From positions 1 to 36,615 of IMG/VR virus record IMGVR_UViG_3300037137_002069: a DNA stretch of 36,615 bases. One strand, 5' to 3'. The stretch is from a virus. Below are positions 2,671 to 31,846 of the stretch, piece after piece (the first letter of the stretch is position 1; each line of letters begins with the position of its first letter). The translations under genes were made by a program, and so were the position numbers. The notes beneath the pieces are model-generated. The model did not search any database and had not been told where the DNA came from. It was given only the letters and a program-made list of their open reading frames with translations.

Positions 2671-3144
2671 ATGGCAATGCCGAAGTCCGCGGTGAACCCG
2701 CTGGAAGATTTGTATCAGCTCATCTCGCGTGGTGCAGTTCAGAGAGACATTGTGGTCGCTCGTGGTGACAAGACTACGACGTATACACTGCGGTCGTTGT
2801 ACGACGAGGATTACACCTGGCGTGATCAATTCGTTAACATGAGCAGCCCGGCTGCTATGGTATCGTCTCAGAAGTCTCCTACGCTTGCTATCGCCACGCT
2901 TGCCATCGACGGGATTCCTGTGGAGCAAATCTCCGACTTGCAGAAGATGGATGACCTGGACCTTCCGCAGTCTGTCAAGGACTCGATCCGTGAAGGAGCG
3001 AAGTATCTCCCCGCGTACAATCTCCACACTCATGTCTATTCAAAGCTCCCCCGTGACTACGTGGTTGAGCTATACGAAAAGTACCTGCGCGAGGTGGAAG
3101 CGCCCGCCCGGAAGGTGGGCACTGACGAAATAAAAAACTCCTAA
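2671..3144 (+). CDS. Tail assembly chaperone, short form (gpG-like)
   Basis: This 157-residue protein sits where lambda-type gpG lies, between tube and tape measure. It is expected to coat the tape measure protein during tail assembly and not to stay in the virion. The start is set by AAGGAG six bases before the ATG. The sequence is mostly helical and charged (LEDLYQLISRG, DVVELYEKYLREVEAPARK equivalents near the ends), and an MDDLDLPQSVKDSIREGA segment resembles the tail chaperone fold in phages with this gene order. The last codons contain the slippery heptamer A AAA AAC, two codons before the stop, so a fraction of ribosomes should make a longer product. The function rests on position and the frameshift signal. 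Confidence 0.8.
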   Translation: MAMPKSAVNPLEDLYQLISRGAVQRDIVVARGDKTTTYTLRSLYDEDYTWRDQFVNMSSPAAMVSSQKSPTLAIATLAIDGIPVEQISDLQKMDDLDLPQSVKDSIREGAKYLPAYNLHTHVYSKLPRDYVVELYEKYLREVEAPARKVGTDEIKNS

Positions 3145-3184
3145 GCCAGTATCCGCTTCTTGAAATCAAGCAGCGGGTGCTGGC
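3132..3184 (+). promoter_or_regulatory. Programmed -1 ribosomal frameshift signal
   Basis: The heptamer A AAA AAC at 3132-3138 is in the correct phase (ATA AAA AAC TCC TAA). After a 6-nt spacer holding the zero-frame stop, 3145-3162 pairs with 3167-3184 around an AAAT loop. The 18 positions give 17 pairs, two of them G-T, with a single T-C mismatch at 3158/3171. Slippery heptamer, spacer and stem all match the known requirements for -1 frameshifting. The -1 frame is open to 3611. Confidence 0.9.
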
Positions 3185-3611
3185 GGAATGGGGCGTACCC
3201 CCGACTGACGAGCGGTTGGGGAAGATGAACACGGCACGGTGGGTATTGTCCCACTACATGCTTGTGGACAAGGAAAGGCGGTGGATGAGGCTGATGGCAC
3301 GCTTTGTTGGTACAGACACGGATGCCTTCCGTACTGATCAGAAGTACGATATGGACTCCGCACCTCGCATTTTTCCTCTTGCCGCGCTCCTGAATCCGGA
3401 AGCATATGGGAGGTTCGTGGAACAGGAAGAGGGTGGAGGCATAGAAGAGGTGCCGGACAGCATCTTTGCGAAGCAGGTTGACGATCTTTCAGCGGCTGGC
3501 TTGCTGTCAGACATCGACGTGATCTCTGACGAGATAGATTTGAAGGTTAAGAAATTCAAGCGCGACGCTATGGAGGCTCGCCTTCCTCCTATAGGCAAGT
3601 TAGGTAAGTAA
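3138..3611 (+). CDS. Tail assembly chaperone, frameshift extension (gpT-like)
   Basis: After slipping -1 at 3132-3138, ribosomes read this frame, so the full product is about 313 residues (156 from the first gene plus 157 here). By analogy with lambda gpGT, the longer form would bind the tube subunit while the shared part binds the tape measure. The extension begins LLSQYPLLEIKQRVLAEWG and continues with a helical, charged domain ending in RLPPIGKLGK. The only candidate independent start, GTG at 3177, lies inside the stimulatory hairpin and has no good ribosome binding site, so I treat this as expressed only by frameshifting. The stop overlaps the next ATG (TAATG at 3609-3613), which suggests coupling to the tape measure gene. 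Confidence 0.85.
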   Translation, partial: LLSQYPLLEIKQRVLAEWGVPPTDERLGKMNTARWVLSHYMLVDKERRWMRLMARFVGTDTDAFRTDQKYDMDSAPRIFPLAALLNPEAYGRFVEQEEGGGIEEVPDSIFAKQVDDLSAAGLLSDIDVISDEIDLKVKKFKRDAMEARLPPIGKLGK

Positions 3612-5905
3612 TGGCAAACGTGTCTCCTCAGGAGCAGTCTGTGCTCGATGCGTATTCGGCGTTGTACAACAACGACCGTACGGCTGCACTTACTATCCTC
3701 AGACAACTCGGTCAACAGCACCAGGAACAGACAGCCGGCTACCTTAACGATTTTCGTGAGAAGATCGAGCGCATGGGTGCTGGTGGTAAGGCGTTGGATA
3801 TCGGGTTCCGAGTGGGAGATCGGATCAGTAGCATGGTCTTAAACGACATCCGAAGCTTGGCGGGAGGTTCGGGGGGTTTTGGAGAGGCAGCGAACGAATT
3901 CGGTAAGATCATCGGCGATGCACTTGGCTCTCACATGACGACGAATGTGGGGAAGGCTTTTGCGAAGTGGGGTGTTGGTGGCGGTGTTGAGTTGCTTCTA
4001 CGTGGCTTCGGGATGTTCGAGATGTTCCGGATGGCCGGCGCACGCTTGGCTCCTATGATCACCGCTGGTAGAGGTACGGTAGGGGAGGGGGGGAAAGAGA
4101 GTTCTGCGGACTTCGCCCGCGCGGGAGCGCAAGCGATCAGTCGAATCGCAGAAATCCGTCAGCAGACTGGCGCATCCCAGGGTGCAGTGTTGGGTGTTCT
4201 CACGGAGCTTTCCCGTGTCGGTGTGGCGTTTGATGAGGCGGGAAAGAAGGCAACGCAGTACGCCTTGGCTGCCGACATGATGCTCAATCTTGAGCCAGGA
4301 ACGGCGCAGACAATCATGGTGTCGTTGATTCGTGATTACGGTGAGGCGTGGGGTGACGTGAAGCCGATCCTTCAAGAAGTGGCTGAGTCGGCGGCATATT
4401 GGGGAGAAGTGAATGCGGAGAATGGCGACGGGCTTTCGAGTTCTCTCAAGGGGCAAGCGAACATTGTGAATTCCTACCAGGCGATGGCGCAGGCCATGAA
4501 GGGGACGAATGTGGATATGGTGGGATTGAACAAGGTGATGTTGTCGTTCCGGGACGTGATGGGGGGTATCGGTATTCGCCCTGCCGCTATGACGGCGACG
4601 ATGACGGACTTCTTCAAAGGCGCGATGCCGCAAGGTGGGTCAGTAGGAGAGACGTTCACGCAGACTTACTTCTTCAAGGAAATGTTGGCGCGTACCCCTG
4701 AGGGACGAGAGGAGATGCAGAAAGGTTTGGCTTACGCATCACAGCATGGCATCGACCCCAAATTTTTGACCGTGGCCCTCGATCAGATGTTGGGTGCTGG
4801 AAGCCTCGATACTACGGCGCACTATGGGAACATTCTCACTGGTCTCGCGGCGGAGAAGTCCACACTTTCCGGAAACGAAGAGCAGAAGAACATGTACATG
4901 CAGATCAAAATGCAACAGATGCACCTCGTATCTGGTACGAAGAACGCTTATCTTGTCCTCGCCCTCAGCGATTCGTTGAGGAGGGTGCAGGGGGCCAATC
5001 CCGGCATCTCGATGCAGGAAGCGGTGAAGTTAGCGGGGAAGGACCCGAGTGTCCTTGCAGCGATCCCTCTTGATCAGCGAGACAAGTCCCCCGAGAAGCT
5101 GCTTGCAGATGCGTTCGGGAGAGGGGAAGCCGTGCTCTCTGTTGAAGAGAAGATCGGGTTGGCTGCTGAGCGGATGAAGCCACTCGACTGGCTACTCAGG
5201 GGTCGCCCTAGTCTAGGGGGAGCCCCGGAGGCTAGTCCGTCTCCTGTCGCCAATACGACACTAAAACCCACGGATGGTCTTGTGACGCGGTTCCTCAATT
5301 CTGTCAAGACTGCTCTCGATCCGGGGTCAATTTCTGGAGCGCCCATACCTCCACCGAGCATTATCGCCCCTCCGCGTATGAGTGGGTCCAACAGACGCCA
5401 CCCTGTGGCGTCGTGGTCGCATCCCACATCCGGTGGTACGACTCAGACTCTCCTTTCTGTAGATGATAAGTTTCTTGATTCGGATGTCGTATCCCGTATG
5501 ATGGCAGGTATCGCAAAGGTAGAGAGTTCAGGAAGGGGTGATTACAATGCCGTGGGTGTCCCGGTGACGAAGGGGCGCTACAAGGGTCAGCGGGCGGTCG
5601 GGCGGTATCAAGTTATGCCTGGGAACATTCCAGCGTGGTCTAAGTCCGCCCTGGGGAGGGAAGTTACACCAGAGGAATTCGCCGCGAGTCCTGAATTACA
5701 GGACAAGATTGTGAAGCATCAGGTGGAAAAGTACTTCGCCAAGTATGGCAGTGAGGATGACGTGTACAGCGCGTGGCTTACAGGTAAACCACGGCGGAGC
5801 GCCGGCACGGTGTCAGATGATCTTGGTACGAATGCGGGGACGTATTCAGCACGTGCATCTCGGGCAGCGGCGCTTGGAAGCGCTGCCAAGGGGTCGCGGG
5901 GGTAA
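3611..5905 (+). CDS. Tape measure protein 1 with C-terminal lysozyme-like domain
   Basis: This 764-residue protein is the likely tail-length ruler, threaded through the tube and released at infection. Residues about 1-75 are helical. Residues about 75-345 match the neighbouring protein at 5909-7771 (for example GARLAPMITAGRG and YALAADMMLNLEPG). A Pro/Ser-rich linker follows at about 540-600. Residues about 625-730 look like a lytic transglycosylase domain: the presumed catalytic Glu638 in AKVESSGRGDYNAVG, then AVGRYQVMPGNIPAW, then YSAWLTG. Such domains in tape measures help local peptidoglycan opening at DNA entry. At the usual 0.15 nm per residue this length would correspond to a tail of roughly 110 nm, if no part is removed. 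The ATG overlaps the chaperone stop. Confidence 0.85.
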   Translation: MANVSPQEQSVLDAYSALYNNDRTAALTILRQLGQQHQEQTAGYLNDFREKIERMGAGGKALDIGFRVGDRISSMVLNDIRSLAGGSGGFGEAANEFGKIIGDALGSHMTTNVGKAFAKWGVGGGVELLLRGFGMFEMFRMAGARLAPMITAGRGTVGEGGKESSADFARAGAQAISRIAEIRQQTGASQGAVLGVLTELSRVGVAFDEAGKKATQYALAADMMLNLEPGTAQTIMVSLIRDYGEAWGDVKPILQEVAESAAYWGEVNAENGDGLSSSLKGQANIVNSYQAMAQAMKGTNVDMVGLNKVMLSFRDVMGGIGIRPAAMTATMTDFFKGAMPQGGSVGETFTQTYFFKEMLARTPEGREEMQKGLAYASQHGIDPKFLTVALDQMLGAGSLDTTAHYGNILTGLAAEKSTLSGNEEQKNMYMQIKMQQMHLVSGTKNAYLVLALSDSLRRVQGANPGISMQEAVKLAGKDPSVLAAIPLDQRDKSPEKLLADAFGRGEAVLSVEEKIGLAAERMKPLDWLLRGRPSLGGAPEASPSPVANTTLKPTDGLVTRFLNSVKTALDPGSISGAPIPPPSIIAPPRMSGSNRRHPVASWSHPTSGGTTQTLLSVDDKFLDSDVVSRMMAGIAKVESSGRGDYNAVGVPVTKGRYKGQRAVGRYQVMPGNIPAWSKSALGREVTPEEFAASPELQDKIVKHQVEKYFAKYGSEDDVYSAWLTGKPRRSAGTVSDDLGTNAGTYSARASRAAALGSAAKGSRG

Positions 5906-5908
5906 GGT

Positions 5909-7771
5909 ATGGCTGACACTGATGACGCGGCGAAACTGGTTCGCGATGCGGAGATGCTCTACCAGAAGACTGGACAACTGTTAGAAGAGCACTCTCAGAA
6001 GTTGAAGATCGCTATGGAGAACATAGCGAAGACGCACGCTGAGGTGCTTCAGGTCGCAGTGAAGCATTCCGACGAGTTGTTTACCCGTTCGTGGAGCGGA
6101 ATGATGGAGCGTTTGGGTGAACAGACAACCCGGATACTCAGTGAATCCGCATCACGAGGAATGCGTTTGAGTTTGTCTTCTGGCATGATCAACGACTTGA
6201 AGCCAGGGTTAGGCGAAGCGGGAAAGGCTATCGGGAGCACGCTTGGAGAGATGGCGGGAGGAGCCCTTGGGCTGTGGTTTGGTCCAGCGGGTGCCGCCAT
6301 CGGGGCGAAGGTTGGGGCTGTGGCGGGTGGGGCTGTAGTCGGCTCTGCGCAAATGCAGCTAGAGGGTTATCGAATGCTTGGTGCCCGTGTTACGCCTGTT
6401 GCGTACGCGGGTAGAGGTGGAGCAGACGAAGGCGACTTCGAGAAGACTGGAAGGGAATACCGTCGGTCCATTATGGAGATTGTCGTTACCACGGGTGCGG
6501 CGGCCGATGCTGTTGAGAAGCTTGCAACGGCCCTCTCGTATGTCGGTGTGGGGTTCCTGGAGGGGGGGAAGGAAGCGTCAGCATTTGCCTTGGCGGCTGA
6601 GCGGGCGATGAACATTCAGCCTGGTGTAGTGGGGAAGTTGGAAACGCGGGCGATCCGGCAGTATGGGGAGTCGTGGGAAATCGTGAAGGGGCAGATTGAC
6701 CTCGTAAACATCGAAGTGGTGAAGATGAACATGCTCGTGAGAGATCAGGGGAACGCCATCGCCAATACGTGGAAGAGTGCGGACTCGCTGATTGACGCGA
6801 TGGGGCAAATCGAATCGGGTGTGAAGAACACGAGCATGTCTATGGAGTCGATGAACCTTGTCTCTTTGAGTTTGTTAGATACGATGACGAAAGCGGGAAA
6901 TGTTCGCCCCGGTGCGATGGTTCAGACAGCGACGAATATCATGTCTGCTCTTGGTCCACGTGGTGGCAAGGATGCCTCTGATGAGCAACGTCGAAGTGCA
7001 GCGATCCAACTGCTCTTGGAGAGGACAGGTGTGGGTCGCGGCGAACTGACTCTCTTACGGGAGAAGCAGAAGCAATATCCGGGAATGGGTCTCGCCTCCG
7101 CCGCAGAGATGAACGCGAACACGAGTGAGCTTGGTGGCGCCGGCTTCACCATGGGTATGTTGCTTGGCGTCAACGACCTGGCTAAAACTGCGGGAGTTGA
7201 GAAGACACAGACCATCTTGGGTACGATGCTGGGGTCGAGTCTATCTCAAACAGAGCTTGCACGCTTGGCGGAGTCCGCGAGTAATTTGCAGAAGATGGGG
7301 TATACGAAGCCGATGACCCCGAAGGAGATCGAGATTGAATCTGCGAAAAACCCGGAGTTCAAGAAGGAGTGGGAGAATGTCAAGGACGTGACGGAGCGGG
7401 CGAAGAAACAGGGTGAAGCACAACTGTCAGCGCTCGACAAGATCGGCAATCTTCTCAACGAGATTTCCATTTGGACGAATGGCACGACGGGGCAAATGCG
7501 TGATCGGGTAGGTCAAACGCTGGGTATTTCGAAGCCAGGCGAGCACACTTCGTGGACGAAGCTTCTCACAACAGACCCTATCCCGGGGATGCTTGGTGTC
7601 CCTCAGCAGGGGGTATCAGGTGGCGCGCAGACGACCAACAGCACAGGGCAAGCGAACGTTCGAGATCACGAGCCTGACCGTGAGACTATACACATCCCCG
7701 ATCACATGGCGAAGAACGTGGTTGAGGGCTCCCTCTCACGGCTGAAGGGTGCCACCAGCCCGGGGCACTAA
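5909..7771 (+). CDS. Tape measure-like protein 2, paralogue of the preceding gene
   Basis: This 620-residue protein starts four bases after the first tape measure gene. Residues about 1-70 are helical and charged. Residues about 108-150 form a Gly/Ala-rich hydrophobic stretch (GGALGLWFGPAGAAIGAKVG), able to insert in a membrane. Residues about 150-345 align with protein 1: GARVTPVAYAGRG against GARLAPMITAGRG, and FALAAERAMNIQPG against YALAADMMLNLEPG. It has no lysozyme-like domain and ends in a short polar tail. Known phages normally have one tape measure, so the second could be a second ruler component, an ejected membrane-channel protein, or a duplicated gene with a new task. The hydrophobic segment favours a role in DNA entry, but that is inference. 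Confidence 0.75.
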   Translation: MADTDDAAKLVRDAEMLYQKTGQLLEEHSQKLKIAMENIAKTHAEVLQVAVKHSDELFTRSWSGMMERLGEQTTRILSESASRGMRLSLSSGMINDLKPGLGEAGKAIGSTLGEMAGGALGLWFGPAGAAIGAKVGAVAGGAVVGSAQMQLEGYRMLGARVTPVAYAGRGGADEGDFEKTGREYRRSIMEIVVTTGAAADAVEKLATALSYVGVGFLEGGKEASAFALAAERAMNIQPGVVGKLETRAIRQYGESWEIVKGQIDLVNIEVVKMNMLVRDQGNAIANTWKSADSLIDAMGQIESGVKNTSMSMESMNLVSLSLLDTMTKAGNVRPGAMVQTATNIMSALGPRGGKDASDEQRRSAAIQLLLERTGVGRGELTLLREKQKQYPGMGLASAAEMNANTSELGGAGFTMGMLLGVNDLAKTAGVEKTQTILGTMLGSSLSQTELARLAESASNLQKMGYTKPMTPKEIEIESAKNPEFKKEWENVKDVTERAKKQGEAQLSALDKIGNLLNEISIWTNGTTGQMRDRVGQTLGISKPGEHTSWTKLLTTDPIPGMLGVPQQGVSGGAQTTNSTGQANVRDHEPDRETIHIPDHMAKNVVEGSLSRLKGATSPGH

Positions 7772-8422: not shown

Positions 8423-9289
8423 GTGCCACTACTACCATTTACCGCGATAACTGATCTCCTCTTCGCGAATGTACAGAAGGACAACCTCCAAGGACTGAAA
8501 ATCTGGACCGACCAGAGTCTCCTGAATGCGAGCGGAACGGGGCCAAGCCAGGAATCGTTTATCCGCATTCAGGTCGTCCCCCAGAACATCCAGTTCACCC
8601 AGCGGTCACGTATTTCGGAGCAAGTCATCAAGGATGGTCGAGCCTTCTTCTTTTGGAGGAAGGACCGTAAGTCGAGCCACCTTGATCTGTTGGAGATACA
8701 GATTTCGGGGATCACCCGCTCGCTCGCCCAGGAGCCCAAACGGCTCGGCGGTTTGGCAGCTCTACAGCAGATTGGCAGAGGAATTGCTTCTGAGGTTCCT
8801 CTCATCGGCAATTTGGTCGGTCATACACCCTCGCCGCCTCCAGAGAAGGAGCCGACTCCGAAGCAGAAGGAGTGGTTGCGGCTTTGGAGGGTTACTCGTG
8901 AGCCGTTCGTGGTTGAGAACGGGATCAACGAACACCACATCCTCCTCGAAACACCCGCACTCCCTTGGGCTGGTGGGATACAGTTTGTCGGACACTTCAC
9001 CGCGCCGATTCAGTTTTCCGAAGTTGCCGAAAACCCTTTTCTCGTGTCGTGGCAGTTGGGTCTCATTGTCCACTACACGATCCCGAGTTTCGACACGCTG
9101 TTCAAGATGATGGATCACAGCACCGCGAGGGTTGGTGTGGGTACTGCGGCGAATCCGGGGGGTGGTCCGTCGGAGCCGACGCCTCCGACAGATGTGCCAG
9201 GTCCAGGTTCTCCTTCCCCCGCATGGGAGGAGCACTCGTCTTTTATCCCTGATCCGAACGCTCCCTTTTTGAAGGGCGATCTCTCATAA
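8423..9289 (+). CDS. Tail hub ring / distal-tail-like baseplate protein
   Basis: This 288-residue protein lies between the tape measure genes and the large hub. The frame has a stop at 8417-8419, so GTG at 8423 is the only reasonable start; its ribosome binding site is weak. Two halves look like one beta-domain split by an insertion. Residues about 47-100 (SFIRIQVVPQNIQFTQRS, then FFFWRKD, then LLEIQISGITRSL) and about 185-235 (GIQFVGHFTAPIQFSEVAEN, then SWQLGLIVHYTIPSFD) match the strand pattern of tube-like hub ring proteins. The C-terminal 60 residues are Pro/Gly-rich and flexible. The insertion includes a proline linker (HTPSPPPEKEPTPKQKEW). Its stop overlaps the next start (TAATG). Confidence in hub identity is moderate. 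Confidence 0.6.
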   Translation: MPLLPFTAITDLLFANVQKDNLQGLKIWTDQSLLNASGTGPSQESFIRIQVVPQNIQFTQRSRISEQVIKDGRAFFFWRKDRKSSHLDLLEIQISGITRSLAQEPKRLGGLAALQQIGRGIASEVPLIGNLVGHTPSPPPEKEPTPKQKEWLRLWRVTREPFVVENGINEHHILLETPALPWAGGIQFVGHFTAPIQFSEVAENPFLVSWQLGLIVHYTIPSFDTLFKMMDHSTARVGVGTAANPGGGPSEPTPPTDVPGPGSPSPAWEEHSSFIPDPNAPFLKGDLS

Positions 9290-29593: not shown

Positions 29594-31846
29594 ATGGAAC
29601 GGACGCTTTACACAGATGGGGTTGAGGTAGACGCAAGCGACCTCACCAACACGGAGGACACCAAGGTTGAGGAGATTCTTCTCACTCGCCAGGTGACGAC
29701 GCGCTACGGCGTCATTGATGGGCTCGGTTGCTCGACCAGTGGCAATCGGATCACTGTGGACACGGGGCGCCTCCTGTTCCGTAATGGCGAGGTGGCGGTC
29801 CTCACTTCCCCCATCATCAACATTGTGGGGGCCTCCTTCGAGGGAGGGGTCAGCACCTTCGTTGGTCTGCGCTTGGGGGAAGTCACTTCCAACCCGAAGC
29901 CTCACGAGGTGGACCCAACCATCTTCGACACCCGCGCAACGCCGAAGATTACTGCGGAGTTGTTTGTTGCCTCCGACCCTAGTACTGCGGCGAGAGCTAG
30001 GGCGCTCCAGGCGGCTATCGACGCGGAGTTGAACGACGCCAACTTCGTCCTCCTGTCCGAATTCGCGGGCGTGGGCAATGGACTCACCCGTGTGACGGTA
30101 ACGCCACAGCCTCGCAGTAAGGGCGGCGACGATCCATTCCGCTCTCCCTCGAAGACCAAGAATCAGAAGACGGCCCTCGTGTCGATATACCTCGACAACA
30201 CGAATGATCAATTCCCTGTCGCGTCAGCCGAAGATCATTTCCACCGCAGTCTCATTGGTTCGGGCATCCCGAACCCTCAGAACGCGCACGGCACGACTCT
30301 GACGGACATTGGTGGAGACGCAATACTGGATCAGGCCATCACGAAGCACCAGCGTGAATTCCACGCGAATGGCATCATTGGTTTGGAGTCTTTGGAGGAT
30401 GAGTTCGCGGAGACGAACTTCTCGTCTGGCTCTTTCGCTTGGGGTATCGACCAGACTTCGAGCGCCGTCACGGTTCATGATCTTCTCAACGTAGATGATG
30501 GGGTGCCTCAGGATGAGGTACTGGTCATTCAGGGTAAGGAGTTGAAGAAGGGGCAATCGAATACTATCCCGGACGGAGACAAGGCGCCACGGATCAGTTT
30601 TGCGAGCGTTACCGTGCCGGGTCTCTACTACATCTTCGCGCGATGGGGTTCAAATGAAGCAGGCGGGATGCCCGTCTTCGACAAAATGTTCAAGGATGAC
30701 TTTGACCTTTTATGTGTGGACAGTGATGGAAAGAAGGCCTGGTTGAACAACGCCGTTGATCCCACTGTGGTCGATGTCGCCATTGGTCCGGAGCGGAAGT
30801 TCTACGTCATCGGTCTCGTCCAGTGGAATGGATCGAGTGCTTTCACGAACCTCGCCACGAACCCGATGATCACCATTCCAGGACCGAGCGGCGATCTGCT
30901 CTACAAGACGGGTCTTCCGGCAGGACATCCGTTCCAGATACCCATCAACAAGAAGGTTCTTGACCTTCGACGCTTCGGGAGTGTGACGAACGAGACAGTG
31001 CAGAAGCGGACGATCCGCCTTGACCGCCTCACGCAAGTTTTGGTTACGGAAGACGACTTCATCGTCCATTCGGGCACCCGTATCGTTAGCGGATCGCCTG
31101 TAATGGCGCTTGTCAACTCAAATAACCATGCGACGCCTGGTCCAGACAACTCGATCCTTAAACATCTCACTGACTTCGATGCGGATCGCCTCTTCGGTCA
31201 TAGGCCGGCAATTGGTACATCGGAGCACGGCCGCTCGCAGCACAGTGGGGGTCTTGATGGCTCCTTCATCCCCCTTGATGAGGAAGCGGTCAACTCGGGG
31301 TTTCAGTCCGCTGCGGATAAGTGGCGTCAAACCTTCTTGACCATGACGTTGATGAAATGGGCAGACCTCCAGACTGTGCAAGGCGCGGCCGGTGACACGC
31401 TTGCGATGGGCGACGCGGCGGCGGTATCCACTCGCGACGCACTCGCTGGTGGCGCAGGATCATACATTGTTTATCGGCGCGGCGAATTGCGTAACTTTGG
31501 GGCGAATGTTCACCATCGTCCTGCTAACCTTGGGCCGCCGCACACACTCTCGATCTCTTTCGTCGTCTTTTCCATAAGCGGTGCCGCCCCCTCAACGCTT
31601 GTGACAAATGCCCAAGAATGGTCCACCCTCACTGTGGACGATCAACTCCCAGCGCTGGGGTTCGTGTCTGATGCTTCGATCGTCAGTCGGTCATGCACCA
31701 ATATCGTAGATGTCCTGACGATTGAAGCTACTCCGGCTGCCCCGAAGTTGATTTCTTGTGTGCGAACCAAGAATTCAGCCGCCGATACGGGAGCCAATGT
31801 GTGGAAAGACCTCACGGTTACGGCTGAATTCCACTACACGTCGTAG
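29594..31846 (+). CDS. Tail fibre protein
   Basis: This 750-residue protein follows a strong AAGGAGG site. The N-terminal part (LTRQVTTRYGVIDGLGCS, then VDTGRLLFRNGEVAVL) is typical of proteins that attach fibres to baseplates. Near residue 225 is NPQNAHGTTLTDIGG, then KHQREFHANGIIG, a His-containing fibre motif also seen in Mu-like fibres (N-P-H-G type). A central region has beta-domains and ends with FITLATNPMITIPGPSG-like sequence. The C-terminal 150 residues have Ser/Thr-rich beta-domains, including NFGANVHHRPANLGPPHTLS. The lysis gene follows within three bases. Confidence 0.7.
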   Translation: MERTLYTDGVEVDASDLTNTEDTKVEEILLTRQVTTRYGVIDGLGCSTSGNRITVDTGRLLFRNGEVAVLTSPIINIVGASFEGGVSTFVGLRLGEVTSNPKPHEVDPTIFDTRATPKITAELFVASDPSTAARARALQAAIDAELNDANFVLLSEFAGVGNGLTRVTVTPQPRSKGGDDPFRSPSKTKNQKTALVSIYLDNTNDQFPVASAEDHFHRSLIGSGIPNPQNAHGTTLTDIGGDAILDQAITKHQREFHANGIIGLESLEDEFAETNFSSGSFAWGIDQTSSAVTVHDLLNVDDGVPQDEVLVIQGKELKKGQSNTIPDGDKAPRISFASVTVPGLYYIFARWGSNEAGGMPVFDKMFKDDFDLLCVDSDGKKAWLNNAVDPTVVDVAIGPERKFYVIGLVQWNGSSAFTNLATNPMITIPGPSGDLLYKTGLPAGHPFQIPINKKVLDLRRFGSVTNETVQKRTIRLDRLTQVLVTEDDFIVHSGTRIVSGSPVMALVNSNNHATPGPDNSILKHLTDFDADRLFGHRPAIGTSEHGRSQHSGGLDGSFIPLDEEAVNSGFQSAADKWRQTFLTMTLMKWADLQTVQGAAGDTLAMGDAAAVSTRDALAGGAGSYIVYRRGELRNFGANVHHRPANLGPPHTLSISFVVFSISGAAPSTLVTNAQEWSTLTVDDQLPALGFVSDASIVSRSCTNIVDVLTIEATPAAPKLISCVRTKNSAADTGANVWKDLTVTAEFHYTS

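Follow-up and report, generated by a model that had tools for sequence, protein, structure and literature searches.

The tail module of a contractile-tailed phage, represented by a DNA stretch of 36,615 nucleotides (the window), contains two adjacent genes, P1 and P2, which we regard with high confidence as tandem tape measure protein (TMP) paralogues. Whole copies of this gene occur one, two or three times in related phages, and a C-terminal peptidoglycan hydrolase is usually detected on a single member of the set. The reading that we favour as the likeliest, at about even confidence, is a tape measure of mixed composition, a hetero-oligomer whose subunits have become sub-functionalised.

Genomic context of the tandem genes

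The genes of the tail module in the window are:

61 to 1782, + strand: tail sheath (phrog_2839, E 1.1e-14; 31% to Rctr197k), probably truncated 5' at the contig border
1797 to 2243, + strand: tail tube protein family
2671 to 3144, + strand: tail assembly chaperone, short form, 157 aa, of a family conserved in related loci
3132 to 3138, + strand: slippery heptamer A_AAA_AAC, joining the frames 2671-3144 and 3177-3611
3177 to 3611, + strand: -1-frame extension of the chaperone, with a weak match to the phage G gp182 chaperone (E 3.5e-4)
3611 to 5905, + strand: P1, tape measure paralogue 1, 764 aa, with a C-terminal lysozyme-like domain (orthologue L010:13299-15578)
5909 to 7771, + strand: P2, tape measure paralogue 2, 620 aa, no hydrolase domain found (orthologue L010:15582-17552)
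8423 to 9289, + strand: g288, a conserved gene at which the tape measure array of most relatives ends

The sheath frame reaches the window edge (1-1782) and the sheath frames of relatives are about 670-930 aa long, which makes it probable that this gene lacks its 5' part. The chaperone extension comprises 144 aa as a listed open reading frame and adds 157 codons when it is entered through the frameshift; the -1 frame from the heptamer stops at base 3611, which is the start of P1. Comparable heptamers were found at the same chaperone gene in 23 of 27 loci tested, and an AAAAAAC slippery site is also used by phiCbK (PMC3556154). Further downstream, a small protein at 31849-32307 matches phage endolysin families (phrog_2649, 1.1e-7), which points to a lysis enzyme in this phage besides the P1 domain. 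It is preceded by a 750-aa protein (29594-31846), of which the N-terminal ~116 residues are 33% identical to Rctr197k_092 and most of the remainder differs, in the fashion of tail fibres.

P1 and P2 lie on the same strand, separated by 3 bases, behind the single chaperone. Both are complete and their sequences do not force co-assembly, so that either might be packaged alone, giving two tail variants or conditional use. This is improbable, however, given the close spacing of the two genes behind one chaperone and the presence of the hydrolase on one copy only, as tail variants lacking it might be impaired.

Paralogy and tape measure identity of P1 and P2

The sequence-only reading placed two tape measure-like paralogues at 3611-7771, with frames whose boundaries and lengths are exact. 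BLASTP aligns residues 72-369 of P1 with residues 89-380 of P2 over 304 columns (95 identities, 31%, 115 bits, E 6e-31), which is slightly longer than the shared region of about 270 residues proposed at first and far beyond chance, and the signposts noticed there, GARLAPMITAGRG/GARVTPVAYAGRG and YALAADMMLNLEPG/FALAAERAMNIQPG, fall inside this alignment. Insignificant similarity and absence from related phages had been named as grounds against the pairing; the similarity is significant, and both proteins have orthologues in L010/L011 (related loci are given L numbers throughout). The regions within the two genes are:

3824 to 4717, + strand: shared region of P1, residues 72-369 (BLASTP against P2)
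3971 to 4027, + strand: weaker, homologous Gly-rich hydrophobic segment of P1, residues 121-139 (hydropathy)
5477 to 5830, + strand: lysozyme-like domain of P1, about residues 623-740 (phrog_24990, Streptomyces phage match, ES motif)
6173 to 7048, + strand: shared region of P2, residues 89-380 (BLASTP against P1)
6227 to 6343, + strand: Gly/Ala-rich hydrophobic segment of P2, residues 107-145 (hydropathy; helical in the model, with low confidence there)

The identification as TMPs, which bears out the tape measure-like label, draws on their location 3' of the -1-frameshifted chaperone gene, on structural matches and on a core profile. P1 follows directly after the frameshifted chaperone, behind sheath and tube. 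The family core HMM matches the annotated TMP gp183 of Bacillus phage G (6.3e-8, in a small database), and PHROG tape measure families match relatives, as phrog_167 does copy 1 of L012 (4.4e-6). Searches of P1 and P2 against the Pfam tape measure families (PF10145, PF20155) gave no match, and relatives match TMP_3 or PhageMin_Tail in Pfam only below the cut-off. AlphaFold models of both proteins have an all-helical, TMP-like fold with the same order of parts, namely a long N-terminal helix, hydrophobic helices and an array of short helices, which in P1 is followed by a globular lysozyme-like domain; their mean pLDDT is low (54.6 and 51.8) and they serve as support only. In Foldseek searches of BFVD, the probable tape measure protein of phiHAP-1 was the top match for both models, and nearly all named matches were tape measure or minor tail proteins. 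Foldseek searches of the PDB with the two models gave no significant match, and searches of solved structures likewise gave nothing meaningful.

The predicted C-terminal lysin and the hydrophobic segments

A lysozyme-like domain had been noticed in P1 only, and this is confirmed: P1 residues 632-759 match phrog_24990 (E 3.7e-25), with nothing comparable in P2. The domain is 39.5% identical to a Streptomyces phage protein annotated as glycosylase/minor tail protein, and an ES motif with the candidate catalytic residue Glu638 is conserved in three sequences, P1, copy 1 of L010 and the Streptomyces phage protein. A Pfam scan of the domain gave no match. By homology to muralytic domains and by its conserved candidate catalytic Glu, the P1 C-terminus is a predicted virion-associated lysin.

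A Gly-zipper hydrophobic segment had been attributed to P2 only. The segment of P2 is indeed the stronger one (mean Kyte-Doolittle hydropathy 1.45 over residues 127-145), but a weaker, Gly-rich one occupies the corresponding position in P1 (0.95 over residues 121-139). In L010, the closest relative, copy 2 has the strongest N-terminal hydrophobic peak (1.77) and copy 1 has no comparable N-terminal peak. The division of labour suggested earlier is thus upheld at the sequence level, with a murein hydrolase on one copy and the strongest hydrophobic peak on copy 2 in L010 too, but its wording as one ruler and one membrane-channel component is too sharp, as both P1 and P2 have the TMP architecture and a hydrophobic segment.

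Distribution and copy number in related phages

Kin among named phages are distant only (Rctr197k, with the 31% sheath; phage G; Skog), and each has a single TMP gene. Searches of named phages by tblastn gave no match for P2 and only the lysozyme domain for P1, and pattern scans with P1, P2 or a two-row alignment yielded nothing useful. Relatives were collected by sheath alignment, which gave 23 and then 17 more IMG/VR loci, and tube alignment added a few; a tape measure scan yielded no further contigs beyond these sets. One candidate, L001, was rejected as a false match lying in a transposition-type gene. The only match in cellular genomes, L049 (QMZE01000009.1), is apparently identical to the L029 contig, which it equals in length and range, and is binned with an Archaeoglobales MAG; since members of the group carry peptidoglycan hydrolases, this archaeal placement is likely a binning matter.

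The relatives have a constant gene order of sheath, tube, chaperone, tape measure gene(s), g288, g849, g522, gp25-like and wedge genes. Among about 33 non-redundant related loci, counted per locus with near-duplicates removed by eye and with many records being fragments, the TMP gene is present in one copy in 12, two in 12, three in 9 and four in none. Single-copy loci are L005, L014, L015, L025, L026, L032, L033, L034, L048, L095, L108 and L109, and two copies are found in the window, L010/L011, L012/L028/L075, L021, L017, L023, L024, L030, L036/L037, L039/L040, L046 and L088. Three copies occur in tandem in L019/L020, L027, L031, L041, L042 and L043-L045, and in L013, L047 and L079 g288 lies between copy 1 and copies 2-3, the arrays elsewhere being uninterrupted. 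A search of 28 whole records of 40-212 kb found one, two or three TMP core genes and no fourth; two extra rows in this search were second pieces of genes already counted. The ceiling of three copies has been observed over about 33 loci. The tail tube gene is duplicated as well, with three tandem tube-like genes upstream of the tape measure genes in L032, L033, L034 and L035, two in many other loci and one in the window and L010; its copy number does not follow that of the TMPs.

The copies are whole rulers. From the N-terminus to a common 'K-IG' landmark, P1 and P2 span 515 and 512 residues, within the range of 472-585 for all copies in all phages, including single-copy ones. A single TMP split between P1 and P2 was discarded as an explanation, since each protein is full length. 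These spans also speak against a serial ruler, in which P1 and P2 would be stacked end to end and jointly give a longer tail. Long rulers do exist in distant relatives, as phage G has a giant single TMP of 2893 aa, but every copy here is as long as the sole TMP of single-copy relatives and the homologous segments overlap instead of complementing each other, which makes such stacking quite improbable.

Hydrolases across the copy sets

In most of the multi-copy sets examined, a C-terminal peptidoglycan hydrolase was detected on exactly one copy, with several sets assigned by alignment or unproven. The enzymes are of different kinds: lysozyme-like, M23, SleB-like, glucosaminidase and M15. PHROG and BLAST matches place the lysozyme-like domain on P1 and on copy 1 of L010. 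Matches above curated cut-offs were obtained for M23 in copy 1 of L021 (39.7 bits), Hydrolase_2 in the last copy (copy 2) of L039 (34.4 bits) and L046 (31.0 bits), glucosaminidase in copy 3 of L013 (40.7 bits) and M15 in the last copy (copy 2) of L036 (30.6 bits), and below cut-off for Hydrolase_2 in copy 2 of L024 (25.7 bits), SLT in copy 3 of L047 and M23 in copy 1 of L012. Hydrolase_2 in L019, L031, L042, L043, L017 and L023 was assigned by alignment to L039/L046, without a Pfam match. A Pfam scan of copy 3 of L027 and L041 gave no match, and copy 3 of L079 and copy 2 of L088 resemble a glucosaminidase and an M15 domain, respectively, by eye only. A scan of nine single-copy TMPs matched none (0/9); those of L095, L108 and L109 were judged by eye only. 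Because of shared ancestry, with single- and multi-copy states only about two changes apart on the sheath tree, the association of copy number with a hydrolase is beyond a statistical test; the tree behind this count left out several loci and had a wrong ORF for L027, and for topology another sheath tree was relied on. In the last copies of L017, L019, L031, L039 and L046, a conserved CPxC motif lies N-terminal to the hydrolase region (GNCPRCG in most, GDCPRCA and GNCPSCG in L017 and L046); it is possibly half of a zinc site whose second half is supplied by another subunit.

Duplication history and selection

A gene tree built on 53 core sequences places P1 and P2 in one clade with the two copies of L010 (100/100). 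Separate clades hold the pairs of L012/L021 (93/66) and the trios of L013/L047 (100/94), and the clade that is left divides into first and last copies before the first copies of the three-copy phages part from the second ones. An AU test rejects any grouping of P1 or P2 with the L012/L021 copies (p <= 3e-6), which rules out a single ancient duplication from which both the window and the L012 group would descend; for the other lineages the AU test carries less weight (p 0.006-0.054). As judged from these clades and tests, P1 and P2 arose by duplication within their own lineage, which has orthologues of both in L010/L011, and, if gene conversion is disregarded, the minimum is two separate duplications, with four or five being probable. 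On the sheath tree, either the single-copy or the multi-copy condition could be the older state.

Between L010 and L011, dN/dS is 0.109 for copy 1, 0.046 for copy 2 and 0.083 for the sheath, values that indicate purifying selection on both copies. That P2 might be a decaying or mis-annotated copy is accordingly very hard to credit, as its 620-aa frame is intact and its orthologue in L010/L011 has a dN/dS of 0.05.

A possible mixed tape measure bundle

The known TMPs of T4 (gp29; PMC3004832), JBD30 (PMC11445458) and phiCD508 (PMC11948020) are reported to occur as trimers or in three copies. For the window phage, we infer that P1 and P2 are co-packaged in parallel and function together as a ruler. 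As full-length TMPs from a tandem duplication in its lineage, they would be loaded with assistance from the one tail chaperone and form a single hetero-oligomer of parallel strands inside the lumen of the tail tube, such as a 2:1 or 1:2 trimer or a 3+3 assembly. This hetero-oligomer would jointly set the tail length and then be ejected, with P1 supplying the C-terminal murein hydrolase, the one kind in the bundle, and P2 supplying most of the membrane-inserting hydrophobic segment. The ceiling of three genes, the whole-length copies behind one chaperone and the hydrolase on one member fit a mixed bundle, and duplication may have freed its subunits to specialise. A more specific version, which we put forward tentatively, is that the three strands of the TMP trimer can be encoded by different genes. 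Tandem duplication would have repeatedly turned a homotrimer into a heterotrimer (from one to two to three genes), with the three-stranded bundle barring more and one strand alone carrying a swappable murein hydrolase.

Several observations count against a hetero-oligomer. The C-terminal end of known tape measures docks in the baseplate, although in this group the C-termini differ between copies. Furthermore, no covariation was found between the spans of copies inside one phage (Spearman -0.32, p 0.31, 12 phages of one clade). In addition, hydrolases are fused to single TMPs elsewhere (phage G, T5, TM4), so a hydrolase needs no duplication. The main rival to the mixed bundle is a division into ruler and pilot, in which one paralogue sets the tail length and the other is a duplicated TMP that has turned into a lumen passenger for passage of the wall or membrane. 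Detection of the hydrolase on one copy only, the stronger hydrophobic segment of the other copy in the window and L010, and the lack of conservation of the C-termini between copies are in agreement with such a pilot. However, the whole TMP architecture and span are kept in all copies, and two hydrophobic segments are kept in every copy in several lineages, and we consider this division rather unlikely.

Relation to known systems

TMPs are usually regarded as homomeric rulers derived from one gene. Bacillus phage G gp183 (2893 aa, annotated with lysin activity) resembles P1 and P2 in following sheath, tube and a frameshifted chaperone, and P1 in having a hydrolase fused to the TMP, with the core profile match given above, but there a single giant gene takes the place of the two or three full-length copies. 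Rctr197k_071 (669 aa), at the tape measure position of the metagenomic virus Rctr197k, shares gene order and core family with the window (2e-59 against the core HMM, of which it is itself a member), but is present in a single copy with no hydrolase domain found. The TMPs phiCbK gp95, T5 pb2 and TM4 Tmp carry a fused peptidoglycan hydrolase (PMC3556154, PMC6116005), as P1 does, but each derives from a single gene and bears the enzyme on every subunit, whereas here it is on one of two to three paralogues. Finally, the bundles of T4 gp29, phiCD508 gp59 and JBD30 gp46 likely have the same lumen-filling role as P1 and P2, but each is the product of one gene, whereas up to three genes are available here. 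The open-access literature, the only literature covered, yielded no description of tandem tape measure paralogues. What appears new is the variable-copy tandem arrangement, the proteins themselves being of a known kind.

Relatives with one, two or three whole copies constitute a natural experiment on the number of strands in a ruler, on whether tail length and penetration can be separated and on why the added hydrolase is on one strand only. The tail length of such phages is not simply readable from 'the' tape measure gene. The occurrence of one, two or three copies, and never more, in related uncultivated phages suggests that a tail ruler composed of several related proteins has evolved more than once.
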